This document shows positions 987 through 43,007 of a DNA stretch of 64,000 nucleotides, piece after piece; the first letter of the stretch is position 1, and each line of letters starts with the position of its first letter. Both the position numbers and the translations under genes were made by a program. This DNA is from Lachnospiraceae bacterium (GTDB taxonomy: Bacteria > Bacillota > Clostridia > Lachnospirales > Lachnospiraceae). The notes under the pieces were generated by a model. The model ran no database searches and was not told the DNA's origin. It saw nothing but the letters and a program-made list of their open reading frames with translations. Location: the NCBI GenBank assembly GCA_022483465.1, contig JAKVNF010000001.1, positions 868,001 through 932,000 of the forward strand, given 5' to 3'.

Positions 987-1319
987 ATGGAACACAGCTA
1001 TATGCCCGTGATCTACATCTGCGCTCCTTATGCAGATGATCCGAAAGGCAATACGGAAAAAGCAAAAAAGTATGCCCGGTTTGCAACGGACAGCGGATAC
1101 ATTCCGATCTCGCCCCATCTCCTGCTCTCCTTCATGGATGAAGCAACAGAGCGCAGGAAGGCCATGTTCATGGATCTGGTCCTGCTTGGGAAATGTTCTG
1201 AACTCTGGTATTTCGGAGACCGGATCACTTCCGGCATGGACATTGAACTGGAACGCGCCAGAAAGCGCCGCATGAAGATCAGACACTTCACTGAGGACTG
1301 CCGGGAGGTGACGTTATGA
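987..1319 (+). CDS. DUF4406/DUF7768-type nucleotide-hydrolase-like protein
   Basis: A 110-residue protein with the opening VIYICAPYADDP, then ARFATDSGYIPISPHL and a late WYFGDRITSGMDIE block. This pattern belongs to the small phage proteins related to nucleoside 2-deoxyribosyltransferases (DUF4406/DUF7768). The family may act on modified nucleotides, but its phage function is not settled. AGGAGG is 5-10 bases upstream of the ATG. The stop overlaps the VapE start (ATGA), so the two genes are translationally coupled. Confidence 0.65.
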   Translation: MEHSYMPVIYICAPYADDPKGNTEKAKKYARFATDSGYIPISPHLLLSFMDEATERRKAMFMDLVLLGKCSELWYFGDRITSGMDIELERARKRRMKIRHFTEDCREVTL

Positions 1320-3667
1320 GAGATCTTGCCATTGCCTACGGAAATTCCCGTCAGGCAAAAACATGGACCAATAAGACAACGACCTTTGATGACCTGAAGG
1401 CCCGTCTTAAGACTCCCATCCGCACGACTGAGTCGGCCGAGGAATATTCGAAAATGGCCAAGTTAGCCCGCGATGCTGCCAAGGACCACGGCGGCTTTGT
1501 CGGCGGCTCCCTGATCGGCGGACGCAGGAAGATCGACACGGTCGAGAAACGTTCCATGGTGGCTCTGGACGGCGACCGCATTACGCCAGAGTTCCTTGAT
1601 AACTACGAGAATCTCTGCCCGTACACCTCAGTGCTCTACACTACGCACAGTAGCACGCCCGACAACCCAAGAGTCCGTCTGGTCTTCCCTTTGACCCGAG
1701 ATGTGGCTCCGGAGGAATATGTCGCGGTCGCAAGATACCTCGCTCAGTCCCTGAACATTGAGTACTTCGACGAGTGCAGCTATCAGCCTAATCAGCTGAT
1801 GTACTGGCCTTCGTGCCCGTCAAACGGAACGTTCGTCTACAAGGAGACGGACGGCGGATGGCTGGATCCGGATGTGATTCTCTCTGCTCACCCGGAGTGG
1901 CAGGATCCGACACGGCTTCCCACCTCATCGAGGGAGAGCAAGGCCAATACCACCCAGCAGAAAAAGGTGCAGGATCCGCTTACGAAGTCCGGCGTCGTCG
2001 GGCTTTTCAATCGTACCTACTACCCCATTACGAAGGCTCTGGAGACTTTTCTCTCAGATGTATATGAGCCGACGACAAATCCAGAACGCTGGCACTTAAT
2101 CGAATCGAACTCCATGGCAGGCGTCGAGATCAAGGAGGACAAGTTCGTCTACTCCCACCACGCCAAGGATCCCGCCTACTTGCAACTCTGTAATGCTTTC
2201 GACATTGTGCGGATTCACCGCTTCGGCGACCTGGATGAAAAGAAATCCTTCAGCGCGATGTGCGACTTTGCCATGCAGCAGGACGACGTAAAGCTGGCTG
2301 CTTCCGAGGAACGCATGAAGGATGCCCAGTCCGATTTTACCGATGCCGGGGATGAGAACAATGACTGGAAGAAAAAGCTCAAGTACATGTCCCGTTCCAC
2401 GCTTCTCCAGAACACCGTGTACAACCTCAATCTGATTCTGGCCAATGATCCGGATTTCCAGAACTTTGCCTTCAACGAGATGGCAAACCGCATCCAGGTA
2501 ACCGGGCCGCTGCCGTGGGACAGACCCGAAGGAAATGAGTTCTGGAGGGATGCCGATACGGCGCAGCTGAAGTCCATCATCGACATCCGCTATCTGCCCT
2601 TCTCCAGCAGAAACTACGATGTTTCCTTTACAAAGACTGCAGACGACCGCCACTTCCATCCCATCCGCGACTATCTGGACAGTCTGCCAGAGTGGGATGG
2701 GATCGAGCGCGTGGAGGATCTCTTCATCCGCTACCTTCTGGCTGATGATACGGAATATGTCCGGACCGTCACCAGAAAGACCTTCGCCGCTGCGGTCGCA
2801 AGAATCTATGAGCCCGGAACGAAGTTTGACTGTGTGCCTGTTCTGGACGGCGATCAGGGAATCGGAAAATCCTCCATCGTAAAAGATCTCGTGACTTCGG
2901 ACTACTACAGCGAGACGCTCTCCCTCACTGATATGGACGACAAGTCAGGCGCAGAAAAGCTGCAAGGATTCTGGGTCGTCGAGATCGGAGAACTTGCCGG
3001 AATGAAGAAAGCCGACATCGAGAAGGTCAAGGCCTTCCTCTCAACATCCGACGACAAGTACCGTCCTTCTTACGGCAAGGTCGTAGAAAGCCATCCGAGG
3101 CAGTGCGTCATTATTGCGACCGTCAACGGCGAGCGCGGATACTTGCGTGATATCACCGGAAACCGCCGTTTCTGGATCATCAAATGCCATCAGAAAAAGC
3201 AGAGGAAGGCATGGAACTTCGACGAGAACTACCGTGCCCAGTTCTGGGCGGAGGCAAAGCAGATCTGGAAGGCTGGCGAAAAGCTGTACCTCGAGGGTGA
3301 CGTACTGGAAGCCGCCGAGAAAGAGCAGCGCGGCGCTATGGAGGCGGATGAGCGTGTCGGCATGGTCGAGGAGTACCTGAATACCCCTGTTCCCGCCAAC
3401 TGGGACGACATGGACCTTTATGCCAGAAAGAATTTTCTTCAGGGCTCTGAATTCGGAAATCCGGATCATGGGGAACTTCATCTTCGGAACGAAATCTCCA
3501 ATGCGGAAATCTGGTGCGAGTGTTTCAACAAGAACCTGCCGGAACTCAAATCATCCGACAGCTATCTGATTGCTGCCCTCATGACACAGGTCGATGGCTG
3601 GGAACGCACCAATGACAGGAAAAAGCAGGCCTTCTACGGAAGGCAGAGGCTCTATCGCAGGATTTGA
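1316..3667 (+). CDS. VapE-family phage primase/helicase
   Basis: A 783-residue replication protein. The C-terminal half is the virulence-associated E ATPase domain: Walker A GDQGIGKSS near residue 512, a Walker B-like FWVVEIGEL about 40 residues later, and the sensor segment CVIIATVN. The N-terminal part contains VALDGDRITPEF and SVLYTTHSSTPDNPRVRLVF, which resembles the archaeo-eukaryotic primase-like region often joined to VapE. It should unwind and prime phage DNA. The ATG overlaps the upstream stop. Directly downstream is a non-coding stretch with nine GGACA motifs, a plausible origin for it. Family call is firm; primase activity is inferred. Confidence 0.85.
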   Translation: MRDLAIAYGNSRQAKTWTNKTTTFDDLKARLKTPIRTTESAEEYSKMAKLARDAAKDHGGFVGGSLIGGRRKIDTVEKRSMVALDGDRITPEFLDNYENLCPYTSVLYTTHSSTPDNPRVRLVFPLTRDVAPEEYVAVARYLAQSLNIEYFDECSYQPNQLMYWPSCPSNGTFVYKETDGGWLDPDVILSAHPEWQDPTRLPTSSRESKANTTQQKKVQDPLTKSGVVGLFNRTYYPITKALETFLSDVYEPTTNPERWHLIESNSMAGVEIKEDKFVYSHHAKDPAYLQLCNAFDIVRIHRFGDLDEKKSFSAMCDFAMQQDDVKLAASEERMKDAQSDFTDAGDENNDWKKKLKYMSRSTLLQNTVYNLNLILANDPDFQNFAFNEMANRIQVTGPLPWDRPEGNEFWRDADTAQLKSIIDIRYLPFSSRNYDVSFTKTADDRHFHPIRDYLDSLPEWDGIERVEDLFIRYLLADDTEYVRTVTRKTFAAAVARIYEPGTKFDCVPVLDGDQGIGKSSIVKDLVTSDYYSETLSLTDMDDKSGAEKLQGFWVVEIGELAGMKKADIEKVKAFLSTSDDKYRPSYGKVVESHPRQCVIIATVNGERGYLRDITGNRRFWIIKCHQKKQRKAWNFDENYRAQFWAEAKQIWKAGEKLYLEGDVLEAAEKEQRGAMEADERVGMVEEYLNTPVPANWDDMDLYARKNFLQGSEFGNPDHGELHLRNEISNAEIWCECFNKNLPELKSSDSYLIAALMTQVDGWERTNDRKKQAFYGRQRLYRRI

Positions 3668-3670
3668 TTG

Positions 3671-3907
3671 GGACAAGATACGTGGACAGGACAAGATTTC
3701 TATATATATTCGAAATCCTTGTAACAAAAAGGAGTAGGTAATAACAACACACGCGTAAGGGTATATAGGGAGTTCTTGTCCTTTCTGTCCCCTTGTCCAA
3801 AAGAAAAATTGAATCCCCTATGGCATGAAAACAATTGATTTTAGCGGCTTTCCGGACATTTGGCTCCCTATGAAAAGACTCCTTTTCACGGGGACAAGCT
3901 CCGGACA
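3671..3907. other. Candidate phage replication origin with GGACA iterons
   Basis: This 263-base gap between VapE and the next gene has no plausible ORF but contains nine copies of GGACA in three triplets. Forward copies begin at 3671, 3684 and 3689; reverse copies (TGTCC) at 3777, 3786 and 3794; forward copies at 3854, 3892 and 3903. Seven of them extend to GGACAAG or GGACAG. A very AT-rich block (TCTATATATATTC) lies between the first two triplets. Iterons plus an AT-rich block beside a replicative helicase gene is the usual layout of a phage origin. Function is inferred. Confidence 0.5.
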
Positions 3908-3930
3908 GGCTATGGAAAGGATGATTTTTT

Positions 3931-4452
3931 ATGAAAGAACTTGATGAAAAGTATATCGCCCGATGCCACCGGAAATTAAAAGAATATGGTGCGCCTCTCT
4001 CCGGCTGGTATTGCGTAGAGGTGATCGACATTGCAGATGAAATGGATGACGAGGATGCAACAACCGAATGTGAACTCTGCGGCTGCAAGAAAGTGCGCTA
4101 TATCCATGTGATGCGCCATGACGACTACTTCGATGATTTCCGTGTTGGCTGCATCTGCGCCGGAATCATGGAAGGCGACATTCTTGAGGCCAAGGACCGT
4201 GAGCGCCGCTTCAAGAATCGTCAGAAACGGAAGCTGAACTTTCCGAGACGGAAATGGAGACCGCTCCGGAACGGAAATTACTACCTCAACTATCACGATC
4301 AGGGTGTATTCATCAACAGACTCGGAAACGGCCGGCTTTATGTGCGGTGTGGCAATGATAAAAGCTACCGCTACAAGGGAAGACCTATCGACAACTTCCT
4401 CTCCGCTGCTTATGCCGCCTTTGATCTGGCGGACCCGAAGGAGGCTTTATGA
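3931..4452 (+). CDS. Phage protein with a zinc-binding-like cysteine pair set
   Basis: A 173-residue protein I do not recognise by name. It has CELCGCKKV near residue 52 and VGCICAG near residue 75, which could form a small zinc site, followed by a very basic stretch (RRFKNRQKRKLNFPRRK) and an aromatic C-terminal half (NGNYYLNYHDQGVF). This suggests nucleic-acid binding. It starts with a ribosome site (GGAAAGGATG) and its stop overlaps the VRR-NUC start by four bases, so it belongs to the replication operon. Confidence 0.6.
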   Translation: MKELDEKYIARCHRKLKEYGAPLSGWYCVEVIDIADEMDDEDATTECELCGCKKVRYIHVMRHDDYFDDFRVGCICAGIMEGDILEAKDRERRFKNRQKRKLNFPRRKWRPLRNGNYYLNYHDQGVFINRLGNGRLYVRCGNDKSYRYKGRPIDNFLSAAYAAFDLADPKEAL

Positions 4453-15547: not shown

Positions 15548-16744
15548 ATGACTTTACAGGAGCTTATGAACAAGAGAGCAAAGGCATGGGAAGCTGCAAA
15601 AGCCTTCCTTGACTCTCACAGAAACACCGACGGACTTCTCTCTCAGGAGGACGGTGAAACCTACGACCGCATGGAGAAGGAAATCACCGACTACACCAAG
15701 GAAATCGACCGTCTGAACAGACAGGCAGCTATTGAGGAGCAGATGGGAAAGCCGACCGCTTCTCCCCTCACTGGAAAGCCGGGAGCCGGCGTAAAGGACG
15801 AGCCGGAGAAAAAAGGCCGTGCTTCTCACGCATACGCCAAGGCAATGATCGCTGCCATGCGTACCGGATTCCACCAGGTATCCGATGTTCTGGAAGAAGG
15901 CAATGACGCGAACGGCGGCTACCTTGTTCCGGAGGAATGGGATTCCCGTCTGATCGACAGACTCGAGGAGGAGAATATCTTCCGCGGACTTGCGACTACC
16001 ATCACCACATCCGGCGAGCACAAGATCAACATTGCTGCGACTAAGCCCGCGGCTGCATGGATTGAGGAAGGTCAGGAGCTCACCTTCGGCGACGCTACTT
16101 TCGACCAGGTGATCCTCGATGCCCACAAACTGCACGTAGCCATCAAGGTAACGGAGGAACTGCTCTACGACAACGCCTTCAATCTTGAGAACTATATCAT
16201 CGATACCTTCGGAAAGGCCATCGGCAATGCCGAGGAGGATGCTTTCTTGAACGGTGACGGCAAGGGCAAGCCGACCGGCATCTTCGCTGAGACCGGTGGC
16301 GGCCAGACTGGTGTGACCATCTCCGGCACTAAGATTACTGCCGATGATGTGATCTCCCTCATCTACGCCCTCAAGCGTCCGTACAGAAAGAATGCCCTTT
16401 TCATTCTGAACGACTCCACTCTTGCAGTTCTCCGCAAGCTCAAGGATTCGAACGGTGCGTACATCTGGCAGCCTTCCTACACTGCCGGTGAGCCGGATCG
16501 TCTCTGCGGATATTCCGTTCTGACCTCTGCTTATGCTCCGGCGCTGGAAGCTGGAAAGCCTGCCATCGCATTCGGCGACTTCTCCTACTACAACATCGGA
16601 GACCGTGGCACTCGTTCCGTTCAGGAACTCCGTGAGCTTTTCGCAGGCAACGGAATGATCGGCTACGTCGCCAAGGAGCGTGTTGACGGCAAGCTCGTTC
16701 TTCCGGAGGCTGTACAGATTCTGAAGGCTGGAGCATCCGCCTGA
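15548..16744 (+). CDS. Major capsid protein, HK97 fold
   Basis: A 398-residue capsid protein. Residues 1 to about 105 are the charged coiled-coil delta domain that the protease removes. The mature part begins near SHAYAKAMIAAMRTGFHQV and shows the family motifs GGYLVPEEWDSRLID, KINIAATKPAAAWIEEGQ and EDAFLNGDGKGKPTGIF. AAGGAGG precedes the ATG. Position after portal and protease is canonical. Confidence 0.93.
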   Translation: MTLQELMNKRAKAWEAAKAFLDSHRNTDGLLSQEDGETYDRMEKEITDYTKEIDRLNRQAAIEEQMGKPTASPLTGKPGAGVKDEPEKKGRASHAYAKAMIAAMRTGFHQVSDVLEEGNDANGGYLVPEEWDSRLIDRLEEENIFRGLATTITTSGEHKINIAATKPAAAWIEEGQELTFGDATFDQVILDAHKLHVAIKVTEELLYDNAFNLENYIIDTFGKAIGNAEEDAFLNGDGKGKPTGIFAETGGGQTGVTISGTKITADDVISLIYALKRPYRKNALFILNDSTLAVLRKLKDSNGAYIWQPSYTAGEPDRLCGYSVLTSAYAPALEAGKPAIAFGDFSYYNIGDRGTRSVQELRELFAGNGMIGYVAKERVDGKLVLPEAVQILKAGASA

Positions 16745-29419: not shown

Positions 29420-29720
29420 GGCAATCGCAGAAGATTTCCGCAGAACAGCCGACCACATTGAAAAGCTCACAGGTGCAGGTGTAGAAAGCCCCGCCGATCC
29501 TAAAGCGGAAACGGCCCCGTCTGCAGAAAACGTACCGGATGAAAAGCCGGTGACACTCGAGGAAGTTCGCACGGTTCTCTCTGCAAAGAGCAGCGAAGGC
29601 TATGGAAGCCAGGTCCGCGATCTCATCCACTCATTCGGTGCAGAGAAGCTCAGCGCGGTCGATCCCTCGCACTACAGGGAAATGCTGAAGAAAGCTGAGG
29701 TGATCGGGAATGCCGGTTAA
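29397..29720 (+). CDS. Small phage protein of the so-called Rrp5-like family
   Basis: A 107-residue protein: an N-terminal helix (TQEELLKAIAEDFRRTADHIEKL), a low-complexity middle and a C-terminal helical pair (VTLEEVRTVLSAKSSEGYGSQVRDLIHSFG; LSAVDPSHYREMLKKAEVI). Databases often call this rRNA biogenesis protein Rrp5, a label not supported by size. The C-terminal pattern suggests a small helix-extended-loop-helix or SAP-like DNA-binding module. It overlaps the DUF2800 gene by 11 bases. Confidence 0.6.
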   Translation: MTQEELLKAIAEDFRRTADHIEKLTGAGVESPADPKAETAPSAENVPDEKPVTLEEVRTVLSAKSSEGYGSQVRDLIHSFGAEKLSAVDPSHYREMLKKAEVIGNAG

Positions 29721-30843
29721 TCACGCAATGCTCTCTCCTTCCAGTGCACACAGGTGGCTTCACTGTACGCCTTCCGCACTGCTCGAGAAATCCTTCAGTG
29801 ATACCAGCTCTCCTGCTTCAGCGGAAGGAACTGCCGCTCATGCCCTTGCTGACCACAAAGTAAAGCGAGCTCTCAAGCGTCGCAGCAAACGTCCGGTGTC
29901 TGATTACAACACAGACGAGATGGAGGAATGCACTGACGATTACCGTGACTTTGTCATGGAGCAGCTTGGCAAGGAAAGACAGACCTGCAGTGATGCTCAG
30001 GCTTACACGGAGATCGAACTTGACCTTTCAGCTTACATTCCGCATGGCTTTGGGACCAGCGACTGCATCATTGTTTCCGATAACAGGATGCATGTCATTG
30101 ATCTGAAGTACGGTCAGGGAGTGCTCGTGGAGTCAGAAGAAAACCCGCAGATGATGCTCTATGCACTCGGCGCACTGGATCTCTTCGGAGATCTGTACAA
30201 CTTCGAGGAAGTATCGCTGACCATCTTCCAGCCGAGACGAGACAATATTTCGACCTGGAACACCACGGTATCACACCTCAGGGAATGGGCAGATGAAGTC
30301 TTAAAACCTAAAGTTGCTCTGGCCAATGAAGGACTCGGCGATTACTGCTCCGGCGACTGGTGCCGCTTTTGCAAAGCAGCAGTCAAGTGCCGTGCAAGAG
30401 CCGAAAAGCAGCTCGCTCTCGCAAAGTACGAATTCCAGAAGCCACCCCTCCTCTCGGATGAAGAGATTGATGAGATCCTTCCCGATCTCGATCCACTGAT
30501 GAAATGGGCTGAAGATCTGATGCAGTATGCCACAGATGAAGCTGCCGAACATGGGAAGAAGTGGAAAACCTACAAACTTGTCGAGGGACGCTCAAAGAGA
30601 AAGTACACAGATGAGCAGGCTGTATCAGAGGCCGCGAAGAATGCCGGCTATACCGACATTTACAGGAGAAGCCTCATCCCCATCACGGAAATGGAACGCC
30701 TGATGGGTAAGAAAACGTTCCATGAAGTTCTTGGCGGACTTGTGATGAAGCCGCCGGGCAAACCGACGCTCGTACCGAGATCGGACGGGCGACCGGAAAT
30801 AATGGCAGATGATGTTCATAACGAATTCAAGGAGGAAATTTAA
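29710..30843 (+). CDS. DUF2800 protein, Cas4/RecB-like nuclease
   Basis: A 377-residue protein of the DUF2800 family, a PD-(D/E)XK nuclease relative. Visible are the N-terminal LSPSSAHRWLHCTPSALLE, the nuclease core FGTSDCIIVSDNRMHVIDLKYGQG with D and K, and a cysteine cluster in the C-terminal half (YCSGDWCRFCKAAVKC) that may bind Fe-S or zinc as in Cas4/AddB. It likely processes DNA ends together with DUF2815, a single-strand binding partner. Its TAA lies inside the five-base target duplication of the IS4-family element. Confidence 0.85.
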   Translation: MPVNHAMLSPSSAHRWLHCTPSALLEKSFSDTSSPASAEGTAAHALADHKVKRALKRRSKRPVSDYNTDEMEECTDDYRDFVMEQLGKERQTCSDAQAYTEIELDLSAYIPHGFGTSDCIIVSDNRMHVIDLKYGQGVLVESEENPQMMLYALGALDLFGDLYNFEEVSLTIFQPRRDNISTWNTTVSHLREWADEVLKPKVALANEGLGDYCSGDWCRFCKAAVKCRARAEKQLALAKYEFQKPPLLSDEEIDEILPDLDPLMKWAEDLMQYATDEAAEHGKKWKTYKLVEGRSKRKYTDEQAVSEAAKNAGYTDIYRRSLIPITEMERLMGKKTFHEVLGGLVMKPPGKPTLVPRSDGRPEIMADDVHNEFKEEI

Positions 30844-30938
30844 TTACTCAAACTTCCCACTTGGTCCGACCCTCGAAAAACGTTGAAAATACGCCCAAAA
30901 TTGAGCTTTTTACTATGAGTTTTTCGGCTTCTTGACAA

Positions 30939-30967
30939 TTGAAAAAGCACTCTGTGCCTTCTATAAT
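30939..30967 (+). promoter_or_regulatory. Transposase promoter of the IS4-family element
   Basis: TTGAAA, 17 bases, TATAAT; close to consensus, about 40 bases before the transposase ATG. Confidence 0.65.
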
Positions 30968-31006
30968 ATGATCATCCACAATCAAAAGAAAGTACAGGTG
31001 CTCACA

Positions 31007-32416
31007 ATGAGTATACATCAAAACAAGCCAATTGCAACTGCTAATTTCGAGGACGAATGTGCGTTTGGAAACGCCATGAAAGAGCTTGGCGTAAGCGCTC
31101 TCCTGAAGGCCTCCAATATCACCAAGGCGAAGGGTGCCTCTGCATATGAGCTCTTTCAGTTTCTTGTAATCCTCGTGTTCCAGAAGTGCAACCTGTATCA
31201 CTTCCTCAACTCCAAGAAGAAGGATACTGCCTATGACGATAACACCTACTACCGCTTCCTGAATGAAGGACGCTACAACTGGAGAAAGTTCATCCTGCTC
31301 CTCTCCGCCAGGATTGCCGCCTATTTCACTACTCTTACCCGCGAGGACAGAGCACGATGCTTCGTGCTCGATGACTCTGTCATCGCCCGTAACCGTTCCA
31401 AAAAGGTGGAGCTGCTCTCCAATGTCTACAATCACGTGATCCACAGAACCGAGAGGGGATTTAATCTCCTTCTTCTTGGGTGGACCGATGGATACAGCTT
31501 CCTTCCGGTCCAGTACATCATGCTTGCTTCGGCCAAGGCTAAGAGCCGCATCTGCGACGTATACGACAAGCACCTGCGTCATAACACCAACGCGTACAAG
31601 AGACGGGTGGATGCAATTACGCAAAAGCCCGTGATTGCACTTCAGTTGCTTCGCTTCGCCATTGACGCTGATATCAAAGCCGAATACGTGCTCATGGATA
31701 CCTGGTTCACGACAGAATCGTTCATCTGCAACATCAAGAACCTCGGCCTTGAGGTGATCGGCATGCTCAAAGATACCAAGCAGCAGTATTGGTACAAAGG
31801 CAGGCTGTATAACCTGAAAGGCCTTGCGAAGACTGCCATCCGTCATTGCCCGCAGGGGAACCTGTTCGGGTCCATTGTTGTCAAAACGAAGTATCAGCAG
31901 CTTCCTGTCAAGCTGGTCTTTGTCCGCAATCGCAACAAGAAGGACGAGTACATCATCCTTCTAACCACTGCGGTGACTCTGCCCGACAGTGAGGTAGTCA
32001 GAATCTATGGCTACAGGTGGGGCATCGAGGTATGCTTCAGGGCATGTAAGTCCCTTCTCAAGCTTGGCAAGGAGTTTCAAGGACTCAGCTACGACGTAAC
32101 CGACAGCACAACTGCACTCGTGCTCACACGATTTCTCATTCTCGAGTATATCCGTCGCAAGAAGAATGATCCCAAGACCATCTGTGAGCTGTTCTTCGTC
32201 TGCTGTGATGACATTCAGGATATTTCCCTGAAGCAGTCGATTGACCGTCTTGCTGCAATGCTGATCGAGGGGGTCAGAACAGGTGATGTCTCCATTCAGA
32301 TCTCCGAAAAGATGCGTAGCGACCTGACGAACTGGTTTTCGACACAGCCTGAGTTTATACAGAACCTGTTCCGCGACTTCCTAAATTTGTTTCTAACAAG
32401 CGATAAAGTTGCATAA
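31007..32416 (+). CDS. IS4-family DDE transposase
   Basis: A 469-residue transposase. The IS4 signature Y-x2-R-x3-E-x6-K is present in full (YGYRWGIEVCFRACK), and acidic residues appear in CFVLDDSVIARNRSKK and VLMDTWFTTESF. It catalyses cut-and-paste movement of the surrounding element. The ATG at 31007 (MSIHQNKPIATANFEDE) is preferred over the upstream TTG at 30932, which lies before the promoter -10. Confidence 0.9.
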   Translation: MSIHQNKPIATANFEDECAFGNAMKELGVSALLKASNITKAKGASAYELFQFLVILVFQKCNLYHFLNSKKKDTAYDDNTYYRFLNEGRYNWRKFILLLSARIAAYFTTLTREDRARCFVLDDSVIARNRSKKVELLSNVYNHVIHRTERGFNLLLLGWTDGYSFLPVQYIMLASAKAKSRICDVYDKHLRHNTNAYKRRVDAITQKPVIALQLLRFAIDADIKAEYVLMDTWFTTESFICNIKNLGLEVIGMLKDTKQQYWYKGRLYNLKGLAKTAIRHCPQGNLFGSIVVKTKYQQLPVKLVFVRNRNKKDEYIILLTTAVTLPDSEVVRIYGYRWGIEVCFRACKSLLKLGKEFQGLSYDVTDSTTALVLTRFLILEYIRRKKNDPKTICELFFVCCDDIQDISLKQSIDRLAAMLIEGVRTGDVSIQISEKMRSDLTNWFSTQPEFIQNLFRDFLNLFLTSDKVA

Positions 32417-32501
32417 TGCTGTCAAGTTTCAAAAAATCACCTGTTGAGCAAGAAACCATCGGCTGTTACAGCATTTTTCAAGTGGGAAGTTTGAGTTAAT
32501 T

Positions 32502-33062
32502 ATGCCTATTAACAATCATTCTACAAAAGTCGTAACCGGTATCGTAAGACTCTCTTATGCAAATGTATGGGAACCGAAGTCCATCAACGGAGGCAAGGAA
32601 AAGTACAGCGTTTCGCTGATCATCCCGAAGTCCGACAAGAAGACCATTGACGCTATCAACAAGGCGGTCGATGCGGCTATCGAGGACGGCGTAAGCAAGT
32701 TCGGCGGCAAGAAGCCGAACAAGGCAGCCATCAAGCTCCCTCTCCGCGACGGTGATATTGAGCGTGATGACGAGGCCTACAAGGACAGCTTCTTCGTCAA
32801 TGCCAACAGCACCACTCCGCCCCAGATCGTTGACGCTCATGTTCAGCCGATTCTAGATCGCAGCGAAGTTTACAGCGGCTGCTATGCGAGGGTATCCGTC
32901 ACTTTCTACGCTTTCAACTCCAATGGAAACAAGGGCGTGGCCTGCGGCCTTGGTAACATTCAGAAGATCAGGGACGGAGAGCCTCTCGGCGGTCATAGCA
33001 GTGCTGCTGATGATTTCTCCGACTTCTCCGACAACAACGGCGATGATGATTTTCTTGGCTAA
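32502..33062 (+). CDS. DUF2815 protein, probable single-strand DNA-binding protein
   Basis: A 186-residue DUF2815 protein. KVVTGIVRLSYANVWEPKSINGGKEKYSVSLIIPKSD and CYARVSVTFYAFNSNGNKGVACGLGNIQKIRDGEPLGG (in parts) show the OB-fold-like family core; the C-terminus is acidic and ends DDDFLG, like SSB tips that recruit partners. It should coat single-strand phage DNA beside DUF2800 and the polymerase. Because of the IS insertion its ATG now lacks a good ribosome site (only GGGAAG 12 bases upstream). Confidence 0.85.
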   Translation: MPINNHSTKVVTGIVRLSYANVWEPKSINGGKEKYSVSLIIPKSDKKTIDAINKAVDAAIEDGVSKFGGKKPNKAAIKLPLRDGDIERDDEAYKDSFFVNANSTTPPQIVDAHVQPILDRSEVYSGCYARVSVTFYAFNSNGNKGVACGLGNIQKIRDGEPLGGHSSAADDFSDFSDNNGDDDFLG

Positions 33063-33089
33063 TAGCAGAAAGGCAACGATATGAAATCC

Positions 33090-33148
33090 AAATACCTGTG
33101 TTACAATAAAACTGTATCACAAATACCTGTGTTACAATAAAACTGTAT
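33090..33148. repeat. Tandem 31-bp-period repeat upstream of the oxidoreductase
   Basis: A 28-base unit (AAATACCTGTGTTACAATAA...) occurs twice with a three-base gap. Each unit contains TACAAT, a possible -10. It lies 25 bases before the Lactobacillus-like gene and is probably its duplicated promoter/operator. Confidence 0.7.
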
Positions 33149-33172
33149 TGGGAACAAGAAAGGAAGATTCAA

Positions 33173-33814
33173 ATGGCAAATATCATGATCTTAGGCGCAC
33201 ACGGGCAAATTGCAACGTTAGCGCGGCATCAGTTGCTGAAAGAAACCGATCATCACCTGAGTTTGTTTCTACGCAATGCCGGGCGGCTACAAGACGTCAA
33301 TCCGCAACGGGAGACGGTGATTGACGGGGATGTCACCGACACCGCCAAGTTGACCAAGGCGCTTGCTGGCATTGACGTTGTCTATGCCAACCTTGGCAAC
33401 AAGGGAATTGAAGATCAGGCAAAATCCGTCGTGAAAGCGATGGATGCTGCAGGTGTGAGTCGATTGATTTGGATTTCGACGTTGGGAATTTACGATGAAG
33501 TCCCCGGCGCTTTTGGCAAGTGGAATCATCAAATGCTTGATGGTGGTTATCTTGAAACCTACGCCGCAGCCGCCAAAGTCATTGAAAATTCTGACTTAAA
33601 ATATACGATCATTCGGCCAGCTTGGCTTTCCAATAAAAACATTGTCAGTTATGAATTAACGGAAAAAGGCGAGCCATTTAAGGGCACAGAAGTCTCTCGG
33701 CGCAGCATCGCTGACTTCGTCGTCAAGCTGATTAACGATCCAAGCAAACACATCGGTGCTTCACTTGGCGTTGACCAACCTAACACCCAAGGCGATAAGC
33801 CTTCCTTCTATTAA
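33173..33814 (+). CDS. NAD(P)-binding SDR/NmrA-like oxidoreductase, Lactobacillus type
   Basis: A 213-residue atypical SDR. The nucleotide-binding motif is GAHGQIA (residues 8-14); later blocks are VYANLGNKGIEDQAKSVVKAM, RLIWISTLGIYDEVPGAFGKW and YTIIRPAWLSNKN. By recollection it closely resembles proteins of the Lacticaseibacillus casei group. Flavin or quinone reductase-like activity is possible. Its codon use (TTG, CAA, CGG) differs from phage neighbours; it has its own promoter repeats and terminator and is not a phage gene, so it looks like recently acquired cargo. Confidence 0.75.
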   Translation: MANIMILGAHGQIATLARHQLLKETDHHLSLFLRNAGRLQDVNPQRETVIDGDVTDTAKLTKALAGIDVVYANLGNKGIEDQAKSVVKAMDAAGVSRLIWISTLGIYDEVPGAFGKWNHQMLDGGYLETYAAAAKVIENSDLKYTIIRPAWLSNKNIVSYELTEKGEPFKGTEVSRRSIADFVVKLINDPSKHIGASLGVDQPNTQGDKPSFY

Positions 33815-33837
33815 AGTAACCAGTCATCGGCCAAATC

Positions 33838-33884
33838 AAAAAGAGTTTATTTCCGTGTTCATCACTGGGAAATAAACTCTTTTC
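33838..33884 (+). terminator. Terminator of the imported oxidoreductase
   Basis: AAGAGTTTATTTCC pairs perfectly (14 bp) with GGAAATAAACTCTT, with A-run before and T-run after, so it works in both directions. Confidence 0.85.
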
Positions 33885-33909
33885 TGTTGCCATGCCCTTT
33901 ACTTGGCTA

Positions 33910-34053
33910 TCAAAGTATTATCTTTTTAAGCTCGTCAGGTTCATTGACAGAAGCTTCAAGCAATTCTTGAATATCAATTTGCCAAGGATCAGTAAGCATT
34001 TCATCGATTGGTTTTAATACTTTCTTTTCGTCCAGCTTGATTACTCCTAACAT
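33910..34053 (-). CDS. Small AT-rich ORF, possible gene remnant
   Basis: A 47-residue ORF read on the minus strand (MLGVIKLDEKKVLKPIDEML, then TDPWQIDIQELLEASVNEPD). No ribosome site precedes its ATG, but AGGAG lies inside its first codons. It shares the AT-rich composition of the imported segment and may be the end of a transferred gene. Function unknown. Confidence 0.3.
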   Translation of the reverse strand: MLGVIKLDEKKVLKPIDEMLTDPWQIDIQELLEASVNEPDELKKIIL

Positions 34054-34080
34054 CAAAATAATAATTTCAGTTTAGATACG

Positions 34081-34347
34081 CAGTTCTTAGACATTCTTGA
34101 TACAGTTCTCTACATCATCTACGCCCTCTTCGGGCTCGGCGGACTGGGACTCACGATCATTATGGTCGTGATTTCCATCCGGAATACAAAGCGCGACGAT
34201 GCGTTTGAGAAGGAACTGCACGACCAGAAGATGAAAAACGAGGCAGCCGCTGCAGAGCGTGACAAGGAATTCGCAGCGGAAAAACAGCAGTGGGACAAGG
34301 AATACCATGAAAGACGCATGGCTGCTCTCGAAGATCTGAAGCACTGA
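34081..34347 (+). pseudogene. 5'-truncated gene: membrane helix plus coiled coil
   Basis: An open frame from 34051 has no start codon but encodes DILDTVLYIIYALFGLGGLG LTIIMVVISIR followed by a charged coiled coil (KMKNEAAAAERDKEFAAEKQ) and ends at TGA 34347. Codon use is phage-like again. The missing 5' end coincides with the edge of the imported segment, so the import or a deletion removed the start. A terminator follows. The original role is unknown. Confidence 0.55.
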
Positions 34348-34373
34348 CAACTGAATAACGGCAACATATAACG

Positions 34374-34411
34374 GCGGCGGGAGGCAGAATTCCCGCCGCT
34401 TATTTTTTTTT
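34374..34411 (+). terminator. Intrinsic terminator
   Basis: GCGGCGGGA pairs with TCCCGCCGC over eight bases, followed by TTATTTTTTTTT. The T-run directly borders the left end of the IS91-like element. Confidence 0.85.
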
Positions 34412-34722
34412 GAACCAAATCGCGCGAGCGCGATGCTCCATCAAAGTTATCCCTAAAGCTCACAGCTTTCTCTGTTGGGGATACCATGACAAACTTCAGC
34501 ATAGACAAAAGAGGAAGAAATGATCTTGTCATCTCTTCCTCTTTTCTGTATTCTACAAAAAAAATAACCCACAGATGACCTTGATTGGCGTCGAGCGTTC
34601 ATCCATGGGGCTCTCATAAGCAAGGTGAGTTTATCAAGTCCCTTGCAAATCTGCAAGCCCCATCTTTGTCGGCCGGCCAATCATGAGTTTCATCCCCATA
34701 CCATCATTGCCGGAACGATTTC

Positions 34723-35643
34723 ATGAGATACCTTGATTCCCCGAAATTCAAAACCGAACTGTCCAGGCTGGAAGTATTTCTGTCCCTGATCGACTACCGC
34801 GAGTCTACCATTCAGGGCTATCTGCAGACCGTCTTCGAGTGCTGTGAATGGCTTGAGAGAACCTATCATGTTTCCCTCGATGATGCTGATCTTGAACAGC
34901 TTCAGAGTTTTCTCGTTTATCTCCATAAGCCCATAAGCAAAGGCGGGAGAGAGCTCAAGCCCAGATCTGTCAACGTCTACAACGTCAGCATCCGGCGTTA
35001 TCATGCTTCCGTTGCGCATGCTCCCATCCCTCTGGAAAACCTTCCGCTGATGAAGGTGGATCATACCCTCCCGAAGGTACCGACGCGTCAGGAAGTGCAG
35101 AAGCTGATTATGGGGACGAAAGATCCGAGAAACCGCCTGATTCTCGCCCTCGGCTTTGGCTGTGCGCTCCGTCTGAATGAAGTCCTGTCTCTGCGCTTCG
35201 GTGATATCTCCATCAAAAGAATGCAGATCACAATTCGTGCGGAAGTCAGCAAGAACCGAAATGAAGGGAAGGTCGAACTTCCAAAAGATCTCGCGCGGAT
35301 GCTCTACTTCTACTTCAAAAGATTCCGTCGGGATGCCGGAGAGGGGGACTACCTTTTTCCCGGCAGAGATGCCGCACATCATCTGTCTGACGGAGCAGTG
35401 CAGCGCTTCTTTCAGAAGCGCCTGAAAGAACTCGGATGGGAAAACCGCGGATATCATTTCCATTCCCTCCGACACGCCCATGCGCTTTTCTACTATCAGG
35501 GCGGCGCTGATCTCTTTCAGGTACAGGTCAGACTTCGGCACCGCTCCATTGCTTCCACGATGATCTACGTACAGCTGGATGGTCAGCTTCAGGAGAGAAA
35601 AAACGTTGCAAACCCCTTCGACGGAAACGGCTTCGCGCTCTGA
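34723..35643 (+). CDS. Tyrosine recombinase of the IS91-like element
   Basis: A 306-residue tyrosine recombinase: N-terminal SAM-like core-binding domain (ESTIQGYLQTVFECCEWLER) and catalytic domain with R in GCALRLNEVLSLR, H-x2-R in FHSLRHAHALFYY, H/R in RLRHRSIASTMIYVQLD where Y is the nucleophile. Such genes accompany IS91/IS801-type transposases in Firmicutes and may resolve intermediates. It is not the prophage integrase. Overlaps the transposase by 65 bases. Confidence 0.85.
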   Translation: MRYLDSPKFKTELSRLEVFLSLIDYRESTIQGYLQTVFECCEWLERTYHVSLDDADLEQLQSFLVYLHKPISKGGRELKPRSVNVYNVSIRRYHASVAHAPIPLENLPLMKVDHTLPKVPTRQEVQKLIMGTKDPRNRLILALGFGCALRLNEVLSLRFGDISIKRMQITIRAEVSKNRNEGKVELPKDLARMLYFYFKRFRRDAGEGDYLFPGRDAAHHLSDGAVQRFFQKRLKELGWENRGYHFHSLRHAHALFYYQGGADLFQVQVRLRHRSIASTMIYVQLDGQLQERKNVANPFDGNGFAL

Positions 35644-37063
35644 AAAAACAAAAAAGATGGTACCCTCGAGCCGGCCAGGCAGAACCTTCCGCCTTCCTGA
35701 CAGTCAGACTGCGATCAGAGTTCGCAGATGCATTACCGGCTTCAGACAGGAAAAAGAGCCTTCAAGATATCGAATCCGCCAGATCTTCCGGAGATTTCTC
35801 CCAGACTATCTGGCAAAGCACGGAAAGGAAATGCCGCCCGAAAAGGTGAAGATTCTCCGTCTCATGGCACAATGCGGCACGGGAGATCTGGGTTATATTG
35901 TCTCCATCTGCCCTGACTGCGGAGAAATTTCGTTTACACCGAGATCCTGCGGCAACTCGAACTGCCCCTGCTGTGGCTTTTTTCGCCGTGAAAAGTGGAT
36001 CGCTGAGCGCAGGTCCGAAGTCATTCACGGGATGTCCTACCATCATCTTGTGTTCACGGTTCCCCACGATCTGAATGAGTTGATCTACAACAATCAGAAG
36101 GCTCTGCTGGATCTTCTGTTTCATTCCGCGCAGGATGCCCTTCTGGAGCTCTGCCTTGAAAGGCACAACATTAAGCCCGGAATCATCATGGTGCTCCACA
36201 CTTTTGGGAGCAGTATGACGCTCCACTACCACCTGCACGTGCTGATCTCCGCAGGCGGACTGACACCGGATGACGCCTCCTTTAAGAAGATCAGGGGCTT
36301 CTTCCTCCCTGTCCAGAAGATATCCGGACGATACCGGAAGCACTTCATGAGAGGACTCAAGCGGCTCTACAGAAAGGGAAAACTATCCTTCAATGGCTCT
36401 GCCGCACCTTATGAGAGTGAGGAGTCATTCCAGAATTTATGCGACGAGTGCTACAAGTGCCTTTGGAATGTCAACCTCAAGAGGTATGGCTCTTATTCTG
36501 AAGAAGACAGAGAACGGGATCCGTCACTTCCGGATGTGGAGGATGTCATAGGTTATTTTGGGCGGTACGCCGACAGAACGGCAATCACATCCTCCCGGAT
36601 CAGGGACGTCTCGGACAGCGGTATCACGTTTGAGTACAAGGACTATCATACCGATGGCTCGTATGACAAGAAGGACATGGTACTCACGCCGGAAGAATTC
36701 ATCCGACGGTTTTCACTTCACATCCTTCCGAAGGGAGTACGCAAGATCCGGATGGCAGGGTATCTTGCCGGGAATGTCCGTAAAAAGAAGCTTGCAAGGA
36801 TCCACGAAATTCTGGGTGATGAATATGTACCGAGTCTGATTCGCGGAATGAAAAGCTGTGAGGTCATGAAGGCCCTTTTTGATAAGGATCCGGCCCGCTG
36901 CTCCAACTGTGGGGCACAGATGCATGCCTTTCTCTTCAGCATGGATAAGACAGCGATCTATCTCAGAGCAATGGGGAAGGTTGAAGGAAGCAGCTATATC
37001 GAAATACCCCGGTATTGCCGGGGACCGGATGGAATGTTGGATGTCTCCCATCCGCGCTTTTAA
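35579..37063 (+). CDS. IS91-family HUH (Y2) transposase
   Basis: Up to 494 residues. An N-terminal zinc-binding domain (CPDCGEISFTPRSCGNSNCPCCG) is followed by the HUH motif (LHYHLHVLISAGG) and the tyrosine pair Y-x3-Y in VIGYFGRYADRTAITSSRI. It moves the element by rolling-circle replication. The exact start is uncertain: ATG 35579 lies in the recombinase and no clear ribosome site is seen, so coupling or an internal start is possible. Confidence 0.85.
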   Translation: MVSFRREKTLQTPSTETASRSEKTKKMVPSSRPGRTFRLPDSQTAIRVRRCITGFRQEKEPSRYRIRQIFRRFLPDYLAKHGKEMPPEKVKILRLMAQCGTGDLGYIVSICPDCGEISFTPRSCGNSNCPCCGFFRREKWIAERRSEVIHGMSYHHLVFTVPHDLNELIYNNQKALLDLLFHSAQDALLELCLERHNIKPGIIMVLHTFGSSMTLHYHLHVLISAGGLTPDDASFKKIRGFFLPVQKISGRYRKHFMRGLKRLYRKGKLSFNGSAAPYESEESFQNLCDECYKCLWNVNLKRYGSYSEEDRERDPSLPDVEDVIGYFGRYADRTAITSSRIRDVSDSGITFEYKDYHTDGSYDKKDMVLTPEEFIRRFSLHILPKGVRKIRMAGYLAGNVRKKKLARIHEILGDEYVPSLIRGMKSCEVMKALFDKDPARCSNCGAQMHAFLFSMDKTAIYLRAMGKVEGSSYIEIPRYCRGPDGMLDVSHPRF

Positions 37064-37254
37064 TAAAGATTCTTTTCAGGTCATCTGCCCGGATGGCCTA
37101 TTTCTCATGTCACAACGTCTGTAAATCCCACCCGGTCAACGGTTCAGAAGAAGAAAGATGGGTTTCTGAGCCAGGGTATTCAAGCCAAGTCGGATGCTAA
37201 AAATTCCTAACTATTCCCATAGTCTACGCTGAGAGCGATTCGGTTCAAAACAAA

Positions 37255-37293
37255 GGATAGTTGCCGGCCCCCTACGGGAACCGGCAACTATCC
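37255..37293. terminator. Perfect 13-bp hairpin before DNA polymerase
   Basis: GGATAGTTGCCGG pairs perfectly with CCGGCAACTATCC over 13 bases. There is no clear T-run. It lies just outside the IS91-like right end and 24 bases before the polymerase ATG. Could be a leader structure or processing site. Confidence 0.45.
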
Positions 37294-37316
37294 TTCACAA
37301 TTTATGGAGACACATT

Positions 37317-39299
37317 ATGAAATCACTTAGTATCGATCTCGAAACATTCTCAGACGTCGATCTGAACAAGTCTGGTGTGTACCGGTACACGGAAAGTCCG
37401 GCCTTTGAGATTCTTCTCTTCGGATTTGCCAGAGATGATGATCCGGTAACCGTCCTGGATCTGACTGCCGGCGATACCGTTCCTGAAGATGTTCTGGATG
37501 CACTGACAGACGAAACAGTGACAAAGTGGGCATTTAATGCAAGTTTTGAACGGATCTGTCTTTCCGCATATCTTAGAAAATATTACCCGGAGTGCTTTGT
37601 CACCTACAGTATTCCGGAAGACAGCGTCCGAAATTACCTCGACCCGGCATCCTGGCGCTGTTCCATGATCTGGTCTGCCTATCTTGGCCTTCCCCTCTCT
37701 CTGAAAGGCGTCGGCGAGGCATTAGATCTCGAAGAACAGAAAATGGCAGAAGGCAAGGAACTCCTCCGCTACTTCTGCACTCCGTGCAAGCCGACAAAGG
37801 CGAACGGCGGCAGAACAAGGAATCTCCCCTCTGACGCACCGGATAAATGGGAGGTCTTTAAGAAATACAACCGCCGCGATGTCGAGGCGGAAATGTCCAT
37901 CAAAAAGCACCTGCGTAACTTCCCTGTCCCGGAATCAGTCTGGGAGGAATACCACATCGATCAGGAGATTAATGACCGAGGCATTCTTGTAGACCTTGAG
38001 ATGGCAGAACAGGCCATTGCAATTGACAGCCGGTCAAGAGCCTCTCTTACCGAGAAGCTCAAGAAGCTGACCGGTCTTTCCAATCCGAACTCTGTCGTGC
38101 AGATGAAGGACTGGCTGAGTGCCCACGGCCTTAAGACAGATACCCTTGGCAAGAAGGCTGTGGCATCCCTTCTGGAAACTGCTCCGGATGATCTGAAGGA
38201 AGTGTTAAAGCTCCGTCAGCAAATTGCCAAATCCTCTGTAAAGAAGTATCAGGCCATGCAGAACGCTGCCTGTCGGGACCACAGAGCAAGAGGAATGTTC
38301 CAGTTCTATGGGGCAAACCGCAGTGGACGGTTCTCCGGGCGGCTGATTCAGTTACAGAACCTTCCTCAGAACCACATGCCGGATCTGGCGGAGGCAAGAG
38401 CCCTCGTGAAAAGCGGCGACTATGATTCTCTGGATCTTCTCTATGATTCCGTTCCGAATGTTCTGTCCGAACTGATCCGAACTGCTTTTATTCCCCGTCC
38501 CGGTATGAAATTCATTGTCAGTGACTTCTCTTCCATCGAGGCAAGAGTCCTGGCTTATCTGTCCGGTGAACAGCATACGATAGACTCCTTTGCCAAAGGC
38601 GAAGATATCTACTGTGCAACTGCATCAGCCATGTTCCACAAACCTGTGGTCAAGCATGGCATCAACGGTGAGCTCCGCCAGAAAGGTAAGATTGCGACGC
38701 TGGCCTGCGGTTATGGCGGTTCCGTGGGCGCTCTGAAGGCGATGGGTGCCCTTGATATGGGACTCAAGGAAGAAGATCTCCAGCCCATCGTGGACGCTTG
38801 GCGTGCCGCAAACCCGAATATCACGCAGTTTTGGTGGGACGTCGACCGTGCCGTGAAGGAAGTTATCCGGACAAAGGGAACCAGGGAAGTCAGGGGAATC
38901 CGGTTCTTCTACAAAAGCCAGATGCTCTTTATCCATCTTCCTTCCGGCAGAGATCTGGCCTACGTGAAGCCGATGATCCAGCCGAATCAGTATGGCGGCG
39001 AATCCATCACATACATGGGCATCGGATCCACGAAGAAGTGGGAACGCATTGAATCATACGGTCCGAAGATCGTGGAGAACATTACCCAGGCGATCAGCCG
39101 CGACATTCTCTGCTACGCCATGCGGACGCTCTCCCACTGCTTTATCTGCGCTCATGTACACGATGAGCTGATCATCGAATGCGGCATGGACGTATCCGTC
39201 GACGCGGTCTGCAAGCAGATGGGAAGAACCCCTCCGTGGGCACCCGGACTTCTGCTCCGTGCGGACGGCTACGAATGCGAATTTTATAAGAAAGACTGA
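37317..39299 (+). CDS. Phage DNA polymerase, family A with 3'-5' exonuclease
   Basis: A 660-residue polymerase. The exonuclease domain opens with SIDLETFSDVDL (D-x-E) and continues to WAFNASFERICLS. Polymerase motif A is VSDFSSIEARVLAYLSGE near residue 400, motif B region RQKGKIATLACGYGGSVGAL, and motif C HVHDELIIECG near 613. It replicates phage DNA with DUF2815 and VapE. TATGGAGACAC gives the ribosome site. Shorter than Pol I because the 5' nuclease is absent, usual for this phage group. Confidence 0.92.
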   Translation: MKSLSIDLETFSDVDLNKSGVYRYTESPAFEILLFGFARDDDPVTVLDLTAGDTVPEDVLDALTDETVTKWAFNASFERICLSAYLRKYYPECFVTYSIPEDSVRNYLDPASWRCSMIWSAYLGLPLSLKGVGEALDLEEQKMAEGKELLRYFCTPCKPTKANGGRTRNLPSDAPDKWEVFKKYNRRDVEAEMSIKKHLRNFPVPESVWEEYHIDQEINDRGILVDLEMAEQAIAIDSRSRASLTEKLKKLTGLSNPNSVVQMKDWLSAHGLKTDTLGKKAVASLLETAPDDLKEVLKLRQQIAKSSVKKYQAMQNAACRDHRARGMFQFYGANRSGRFSGRLIQLQNLPQNHMPDLAEARALVKSGDYDSLDLLYDSVPNVLSELIRTAFIPRPGMKFIVSDFSSIEARVLAYLSGEQHTIDSFAKGEDIYCATASAMFHKPVVKHGINGELRQKGKIATLACGYGGSVGALKAMGALDMGLKEEDLQPIVDAWRAANPNITQFWWDVDRAVKEVIRTKGTREVRGIRFFYKSQMLFIHLPSGRDLAYVKPMIQPNQYGGESITYMGIGSTKKWERIESYGPKIVENITQAISRDILCYAMRTLSHCFICAHVHDELIIECGMDVSVDAVCKQMGRTPPWAPGLLLRADGYECEFYKKD

Positions 39300-39309
39300 C
39301 GTTTCTGAT

Positions 39310-39358
39310 GGGCAGACGCACTTTTTAATCCGAAGGGGTGCGTTCTGCCCGTCTTTTT
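39310..39358 (+). terminator. Terminator after DNA polymerase
   Basis: GGGCAGACGCAC pairs with GTGCGTTCTGCCC with one bulge, followed by GTCTTTTT. The right arm is part of leader motif copy 3. Confidence 0.75.
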
Positions 39359-39380
39359 GAGGACGGAAGACATGAAGGAG
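39334..39380 (+). repeat. Copy 3 of the leader motif
   Basis: AGGGGTGCGTTCTGCCC then TCTTTTTGAGGACGGAAGAC and ATGAAGGAG. It matches copy 2 (29125-29172) over almost its whole length although the genes that follow are unrelated. Confidence 0.65.
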
Positions 39381-39390
39381 GTGCTCATCC

Positions 39391-39807
39391 ATGACCGATG
39401 AACAGAAAACCCGTATCTTCCGTATGAGAGAACAGGGAATGAGCTATGACGCGATTGCCGAGTCCCTCTCCCTTTCCAAGAATACCGTCAAGTCTTACTG
39501 CCGCCGGAACAACCTTTCCGGACGCAGGAAACAGGAGTCTGATGATGCAAAGCCTGCGGAATTCTGTCCGAACTGCGGAAAGCCCGTCCGGCAGATTCCG
39601 GGAAGAAAACATATCCGGTTCTGCAGCAGTGCCTGCCGTCAGGAATGGTGGAACAGCCATCTGGACCAGGTGAACCGGAAGGCTGTCTACGAATACACAT
39701 GTGCCTACTGTGGTCGACACTTCACCGCCTATGGCAACTCACACCGGAAATACTGCTCCCATGCCTGCTATATCGCAGATCGGTTTGGAGGTGATCCACA
39801 TGAGTAA
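39391..39807 (+). CDS. HTH and zinc-ribbon phage regulator
   Basis: A 138-residue protein. Residues 1-45 form a sigma region 4/Hin-like helix-turn-helix (EQGMSYDAIAESLSLSKNTVKSYCRRNNL). The rest holds two cysteine modules (CPNCGKPVRQ...RFCSSAC and CAYCGRHFTA...KYCSHACY), likely zinc ribbons. It probably binds DNA and regulates early phage genes or the recombinases. GAAGGAGGTG precedes the ATG. Confidence 0.75.
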   Translation: MTDEQKTRIFRMREQGMSYDAIAESLSLSKNTVKSYCRRNNLSGRRKQESDDAKPAEFCPNCGKPVRQIPGRKHIRFCSSACRQEWWNSHLDQVNRKAVYEYTCAYCGRHFTAYGNSHRKYCSHACYIADRFGGDPHE

Positions 39808-39970
39808 AAAGGATTTTGAACGTGAAACCGACTACATGCTCTCCATCCAGATCGCCAAAAATCTCCTTGAGAAAGGACTTCTCACCGAGGAAGAATACGC
39901 AGTAATTGATACAAAATTGATTGAGAAATACCAGCCGAAATTCGGCACATTATTCTCGGAAACAACTTGA
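39800..39970 (+). CDS. Small phage protein, SHOCT-like
   Basis: A 56-residue protein (MSKKDFERETDYMLSIQIAK, NLLEKGLLTEEEYAVIDTKL). The LL-x-x-G-LLTEEEY pattern resembles SHOCT-type or conjugative-element accessory peptides that precede serine recombinases. ATG at 39800 follows GGAGGTG; overlaps the HTH gene by eight bases. Function unknown. Confidence 0.65.
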   Translation: MSKKDFERETDYMLSIQIAKNLLEKGLLTEEEYAVIDTKLIEKYQPKFGTLFSETT

Positions 39971-39995
39971 TGTGTGTGGCCTTCAGAGTGATCTA
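39967..39995 (+). promoter_or_regulatory. Promoter-like element D before recombinase 1
   Basis: TTGATG, 17 bases ending AGAGT, GATCTATAGAC. Fourth copy of the family at 9266, 10483 and 11388. It overlaps the stop of the SHOCT-like gene and lies 24 bases before the recombinase start. Confidence 0.5.
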
Positions 39996-40019
39996 TAGAC
40001 ACGGAAAGGAGCTGATTTT

Positions 40020-41762: not shown

Positions 41763-41860
41763 TAAGAAAACGGGTTGATAAGCTCCAAAGCATTTTAGCA
41801 GAAGTATAAAATATGCCGTTTTGTACATTCTGCTGTACAACGGCCTTCTCTAACTTGAAC

Positions 41861-41890
41861 TACAATAGTCTTGCCAGGAGGGCAAGACTA
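41861..41890 (+). promoter_or_regulatory. Hairpin covering the IS1595 transposase start
   Basis: TAGTCTTGCC (41866-41875) pairs perfectly with GGCAAGACTA (41881-41890), with the AGGAG ribosome site in the loop and the A of the ATG in the stem. A TACAAT at 41861-41866 would start transcripts inside the left arm, so only read-through transcripts form the full hairpin. Confidence 0.6.
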
Positions 41891-42918
41891 TGAGCTGCAT
41901 TGAGCGCATACTGACCGAAGCCAGAGATCTTTCCAGGGACGACCTGATTCTTCTTGTTAACAAGCTCATGGAGGGCTTCTCCCATGAGAGTGCAACCTCT
42001 TCTCCGAAGAAGATGATTGCTCCCCGTTTGGATTGTCCGATCTGCCATTCCAATGCTCATGTTGTTAGGAATGGACACAAACATGGAAAACAGGCATACA
42101 TCTGCAGGCAATGTGGAACGTCATTTGTTACAACGAGCAACACTTTGCTCTCAGGCTCACACTTTGGTACTGAGATCTGGACCAAGGTTCTGGAAGAGAC
42201 GCTCAGGGGGACCTCTCTGGATAAGACGGTCAAGTCACTTGCCAGCCATGGATGCAAGATCAGCCATAGCAGTCTGTTCTTCATGCGGCATAAGATCATG
42301 CTTGCTCTCGAGGACATGCAGGTGGAGCAGCCAGCCACGGTGGAAGATGTCGTGGAAGCGGATGAAACCTACGTTCCGGAGTCCAAAAAAGGTACGAAAT
42401 TTGGCCCTGATGCCAGTCGAAAGCCCCGCAAGCGTGGCACTCCCGCATCCAAACGCGGCCTTTCAGACGAGCAGATCTGTATCTGCACCGCAGTACAGCG
42501 CAAGACTGGCGATCTGATCGTGAAATCCGAGAACCGGGCAAGGCCTTCCAGTGCGGATGTTGTTGATATCTATACTGGTCATGTCCAGAAGGGAACACTT
42601 TTCCTGACGGACGGCATGAATGTGTATCCAAGACTGGGCAAGATCCTGGGAATCACGGTCATGAATGTGAAGAAGGAGTCGGCAAGTTTCTTCAATCTGA
42701 ACACTGTGAACAACCTTCACTCCTTTATCAAGCACCGCTATATCGAATATCGCGGCGTGGCTACCAAGTATTTGAACCGTTACAACCTCGTATTCCGGGC
42801 AGCGTACAGGCAGAGGACCACGATTGGGGAACTTGCGGACGCTCTCTTTGCATCCAGGAATCCCAAGAAGGTACACCATTATGGAGATGTTAAGGAGCTC
42901 AATCTGCTTGCAATTTGA
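41890..42918 (+). CDS. IS1595-family transposase (ISXO2-like)
   Basis: A 342-residue transposase: zinc ribbon CPICHSNAHVVRNGHKHGKQ...CRQCGTSF near residues 50-80, a helical segment, then the ISXO2-like DDE-type domain with VVEADETYVPESKKG, FLTDGMNVYP and NNLHSFIKHRYIEYRGV where the third residue of the triad or its histidine/asparagine variant is expected. It mobilises the surrounding element. Confidence 0.9.
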   Translation: MSCIERILTEARDLSRDDLILLVNKLMEGFSHESATSSPKKMIAPRLDCPICHSNAHVVRNGHKHGKQAYICRQCGTSFVTTSNTLLSGSHFGTEIWTKVLEETLRGTSLDKTVKSLASHGCKISHSSLFFMRHKIMLALEDMQVEQPATVEDVVEADETYVPESKKGTKFGPDASRKPRKRGTPASKRGLSDEQICICTAVQRKTGDLIVKSENRARPSSADVVDIYTGHVQKGTLFLTDGMNVYPRLGKILGITVMNVKKESASFFNLNTVNNLHSFIKHRYIEYRGVATKYLNRYNLVFRAAYRQRTTIGELADALFASRNPKKVHHYGDVKELNLLAI

Positions 42919-43007
42919 TGACTACAAGATGCACTTATTGCTTATCAACCCGTTTTCTTACTAACGCCAATGAGTAAAAAGATGAAGAAAATAAGGAGTG
43001 AGAAATA

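Follow-up and report, generated by a model that had tools for sequence, protein, structure and literature searches.

Lambda O and the initiators of iteron plasmids act on repeated sites beside an AT-rich melting region; none of them is itself a helicase, and one has to be recruited. The alpha protein of satellite phage P4 is a primase-helicase with a C-terminal origin-binding domain, and its origin has short iterons with a GAACA core and a separate crr region. The closest described systems to the locus presented here are the SaPI/PICI Rep origins. The C-terminal domain of SaPI Rep recognises an iteron origin directly downstream of its gene (PMC7581432), and PICI origins always have two iteron sets on either side of an AT-rich region (PMC6092414). 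The mechanism proposed for these Rep proteins is one of facing hexamers and melting, and in 2018 the design was reported from no other replicon. Another self-loading helicase is SCCmec Cch2, whose C-terminal domain, in isolation, binds direct AAGTG repeats that closely follow the Cch2 gene (PMC7581432).

Here, we analysed a window of 64,000 nt, the whole stretch of Lachnospiraceae DNA under study, in which nine GGACA copies lie within 237 nt (3671-3907), directly 3' of the stop codon of a VapE gene (Table 1). The array starts 4 nt past this stop codon, and the repeats of relatives begin at the equivalent place. GGACA is found on the + strand at 3671, 3684, 3689, 3854, 3892 and 3903, and on the - strand at 3777, 3786 and 3794. 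From the window's rate, the expectation for a stretch of this length is 0.51 copies (Poisson P 3.9e-9); 5000 dinucleotide shuffles of the gap gave a mean of 0.52 and a maximum of 4, and the second-densest place in the window also holds 4. The preliminary description, which had counted nine copies where chance predicts fewer than one, is borne out in this respect, as it is for the forward, reverse and forward triplets and for the AT-rich block between the first two (66% AT over 3694-3776 against 49% in the window). These two triplets are mutually inverted, on either side of an AT-rich stretch (3696-3773) that contains ACACGCGTAAGGGTATATAGGG. The proposed GGACAAG and GGACAG forms hold for eight of the nine copies and fail for the one at 3854, which reads GGACATT.

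Table 1. Features of the VapE gene and the adjoining gap in the window.
Feature	Positions	Strand	Details
VapE-type helicase, putative initiator	1316-3667	+	783 aa; PF05272 at residues 454-673
Predicted winged-helix origin-binding domain	3383-3664	+	VapE residues 690-783; wing strands 762-771 and 775-782; putative specificity residues R768 and R776
First iteron set (forward)	3671-3695	+	GGACAAG, GGACAG, GGACAAG
AT-rich tract, putative melting region	3696-3744		starts ATTTCTATATATATT
Conserved alternating purine-pyrimidine element	3745-3770	+	CGCGTA at 3752, then AGGGTATATAGGG
Second iteron set (inverted)	3775-3798	-	GGACAAG, GGACAG, GGACAAG
Third iteron set (forward)	3854-3908	+	GGACATT, GGACAAG, GGACAG

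By sequence and by predicted fold, the VapE protein of the window is homologous to Rep with its AAA+ helicase core. Its PF05272 (VapE-like) domain scores 251.9 bits against a gathering cut-off of 25, its first 340 residues match no Pfam family, and the annotations of its relatives read DNA primase or helicase. The sole credible solved relative by sequence is PriRep1 (7PDS chain A), with phmmer matching the helicase core at 5e-65 over 348-696. According to an AlphaFold2 model (pLDDT 87.9, pTM 0.55), the C-terminal end of VapE is a winged helix, with predicted helices at 729-736 and 746-757 and with residues 768 and 776 on the two wing strands. The top fold match of the model is again 7PDS, "PriRep1 with dsDNA" (TM 0.75-0.79 by target). 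For the C-terminal domain folded alone, 7PDS is the only credible PDB match (TM 0.75-0.81 by query, E ~0.01), pointing to the same C-terminal domain fold in both proteins.

The locus resembles the SaPI/PICI systems (Rep and Pri-Rep; PriRep1, 7PDS; SaPI5 primase-helicase, 7OLA) in its helicase with a predicted C-terminal DNA-binding domain and in its iterons directly 3' of the helicase gene, two sets of which flank an AT-rich region; the third set of the window is extra. P4 alpha and its origin would share the C-terminal origin-binding domain on a helicase and the short iterons, whereas the difference from lambda O and the iteron plasmids is that VapE is itself the helicase. SCCmec Cch2 differs in belonging to another helicase family (D5/Primase_Cterm) and in having only three iterons (PMC7581432). 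The locus also departs from SaPIs and PICIs: it sits in a tailed prophage, its VapE has 783 aa against 477 aa in the PriRep1 chain, and loci of this kind carry an additional conserved CGCGTA element, with iteron sets that often number more than two. A PICI is a satellite without capsid, portal and tail genes of its own. Because genes for a capsid protein (15548-16744), a Clp-type protease, a tape measure protein and an endolysin are present, we regard the element as a phage and not as a PICI; by analogy, its gap would work like a PICI origin without the element being one. The preliminary description knew of no published origin of this form. This may hold for these phages, whose origins we found nowhere described in a literature search that reached few subscription papers; the form itself is known from PICIs. 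What is new is probably that the PICI-type design occurs in numerous tailed phages, where it has a specificity code that can be read and one further conserved element.

Elsewhere in the prophage, the region 29710-44591 encodes a DUF2800/PDDEXK nuclease, a DUF2815-type ssDNA-binding protein (32502-33062), PolA and two serine recombinases at the right end, with VapE lying at the left. The DUF2815-type gene, which had been coupled with VapE in naming the phage type, does not adjoin it in the window. The prophage is possibly circularly permuted, with the attachment site between PolA and VapE. Its right part also holds three transposase genes (DDE, IS91-type and IS1595-type; 30932-32416, 35579-37063 and 41890-42918), and the prophage is perhaps not intact any more.

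A set of 322 VapE loci, taken from genomes, viral contigs and named phages, yielded 176 distinct gaps, and 51 further distinct gaps were fetched later for a blind test, giving 227 in total. In their common layout, the VapE stop codon is immediately followed by repeats of a short word, arranged in inverted sets that enclose an AT-rich tract and the CGCGTA element. The repeat word varies with lineage (GGACA, GGAACA, CACAA, TGACA and others), and GGACA itself is not conserved, most relatives lacking it. The closest phage contigs (VapE 76-80% identical) have no GGACA after VapE and carry CACAA repeats instead; other relatives have GGAACA, GTGACAA and similar words, always at the same site and around a similar central tract, which is ~80% AT in aligned relatives. 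Absence of the array from related phages had been named in advance as an observation against an origin: GGACA is indeed usually missing, but an equivalent array of another word takes its place. In a de novo search for repeated words, the 176 distinct gaps had a median score of 6.7, compared with 2.7 for shuffled gaps, 3.0 within VapE and 3.1 at +1 kb downstream, and 74% of the gaps scored above all 20 shuffles. About a quarter had no significant word, although some of these still hold an array, as in the CACAA phages, which the Markov model scores low. A chance cluster or a relic of base composition would agree with the poor conservation of GGACA as such, but not with the local P value of the array or with the recurrence of arrays made of other words. 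It is refuted by the blind test described below, and its probability is negligible.

Short VapE genes (~350-500 aa) of other Clostridia (L555-L570) are also mostly followed by word repeats right after the stop codon (GGGAC, CGACAACG, CGGCAACG, GTAACA and GTTACA), without CGCGTA. These repeats are perhaps origins of satellites or integrative elements.

The base preceding ACA could be called from the DNA alone in 127 loci, and it was compared with all 769 comparable VapE columns in an unbiased scan. Residue 768 ranked first of the 769, with a label-entropy fraction of 0.58 (mean over all columns 0.027, sd 0.049), followed by residues 776 and 767. In the first set of loci, Arg768 is present in 31 of 31 GACA phages and Ile768 in 27 of 27 CACA phages, and the AACA phages have residues other than Arg or Ile, with one exception (L227). 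On a tree that leaves out the C-terminal part of VapE, 14 independent pairs differ in both GACA and Arg768, with none against (p 1.2e-4). The rule for residue 768 was then fixed in writing before new loci were fetched. The base could be called in 38 of the 51 new distinct gaps, and the rule predicted it correctly in 37 (G for Arg in 14/14, C for Ile in 5/5, and A or T for other residues in 18/19). The exception, L510, has Lys at the rule position and Arg immediately after, and its wing register may be different.

With all loci combined, Arg768 goes with GACA in 45 of 46 cases (Fisher 3e-38), Ile768 with CACA in 32 of 32 (Fisher 7e-35) and other residues with AACA or TACA, leaving L227 and L510 as the two exceptions. 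The combined independent evolutionary pairs (n=17) are ~16.4 concordant and 0 discordant (p 3e-5); the statistical weight of the Ile-CACA coupling across the tree is small because it comprises only 4 independent pairs (p 0.125). Among GACA phages, R776 occurs with GGACA in 32 of 32, and other residues there mostly accompany T, A or C in place of the first G (10 independent pairs, p 0.008). Both arginines, R768 and R776, are present in the VapE of the window, in line with its GGACA word. Mutual-information maps of the other iteron positions gave weak signals only (K770 at -2). The coupling is not an artefact of composition, by which GC-rich phages would have both Arg and GACA: no other column couples this strongly, and 87 of 87 loci agree with the rule at matched GC content. 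Nor is it circular, since codon 768 is upstream of the counted stretch, which starts 33 nt ahead of the stop codon's last base. The array, its conserved layout and this coupling were computed directly, and the word shifts together with one or two residues in the helicase's putative DNA-reading tail. The covariation suggests that the C-terminal domain recognises the iterons, as in SaPIs and PICIs, and that R768 and R776 read the two G's of GGACA by direct contact.

Two candidates for the initiator had been suggested, VapE and the small protein that follows. The covariation with residues 768 and 776, including the blind test, strongly supports the former. The latter, a 173-aa protein (3931-4452), has no Pfam match. 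It is encoded by the next gene, and the third iteron set ends just upstream of its start; homologues, however, were found beside the array at just 12 of the 227 loci, although arrays are present in most gaps, and the coupling to VapE residues would be left unexplained. As a general reader of the iterons it is refuted by its rarity, and we give it hardly any credence.

We are confident that the gap (3668-3930) is a phage replication origin at which VapE binds the GGACA repeats. VapE most probably does so as a self-loading origin helicase like the SaPI/PICI Rep proteins, to judge from the covariation and from the likeness to these systems. The beta-wing of its C-terminal winged-helix domain would make the contacts, the inverted site sets flanking the AT-rich tract would load VapE hexamers face to face, and the facing hexamers would melt the tract. 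By homology with PICI/SaPI origins, replication would start at the gap; GC skew has no clean switch in the left flank or around the gap. That the repeats are instead operators, through which VapE or another regulator controls downstream genes, with replication starting elsewhere, would fit the intergenic position of the array and the one promoter-like match that overlaps it. A single such match is at shuffle level (1.0 expected), however, and a promoter and terminator scan found nothing beyond chance. In addition, the repeat word tracks the wing of the helicase, and the published layout of PICI origins is the one seen here, with an AT-rich tract between inverted sets immediately 3' of the helicase gene. 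We consider operators with replication starting elsewhere unlikely, although VapE may have a regulatory side effect when it binds.

The conserved object might also be an RNA or cruciform hairpin formed by the inverted sets. The RNA of the gap folds better than shuffles (z -4.4), as do those of 45 relatives (mean z -3.5), in which half of the iteron bases pair with an opposite iteron. Since any inverted sets of one word fold in this way, we do not take the strong folding as evidence for an RNA. The gap has no Rfam match, and a hairpin leaves unexplained why the word follows VapE residue 768. It is very improbable as the conserved object, and an RNA hairpin may arise as a by-product of the origin.

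CGCGTA is found on the + strand in 154 of 227 gaps, against 2 among 220 control stretches. Its surrounding consensus, cgtaTATaCGCGCGTAtAGGAaaTtT, shows purine-pyrimidine alternation of up to 0.91 and is preceded by ~40 nt of roughly 80% AT. The element co-occurs with different iteron words. We tentatively propose that VapE phages share one origin design of interchangeable specificity, in which a two-residue wing code (768 and 776) sets the word and CGCGTA is a separate, new and lineage-independent module beside the melting tract, such as a site of helicase loading or primer start used by the enzyme's N-terminal part; the case for this falls somewhat short of even.

The coupling of residue to base amounts to a rule for reading the origin word from the tail of the helicase, which substitutions of single residues would put to the test. 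The same coupling is relevant to the question of whether satellites and helper phages have origins in common or steer clear of one another's.
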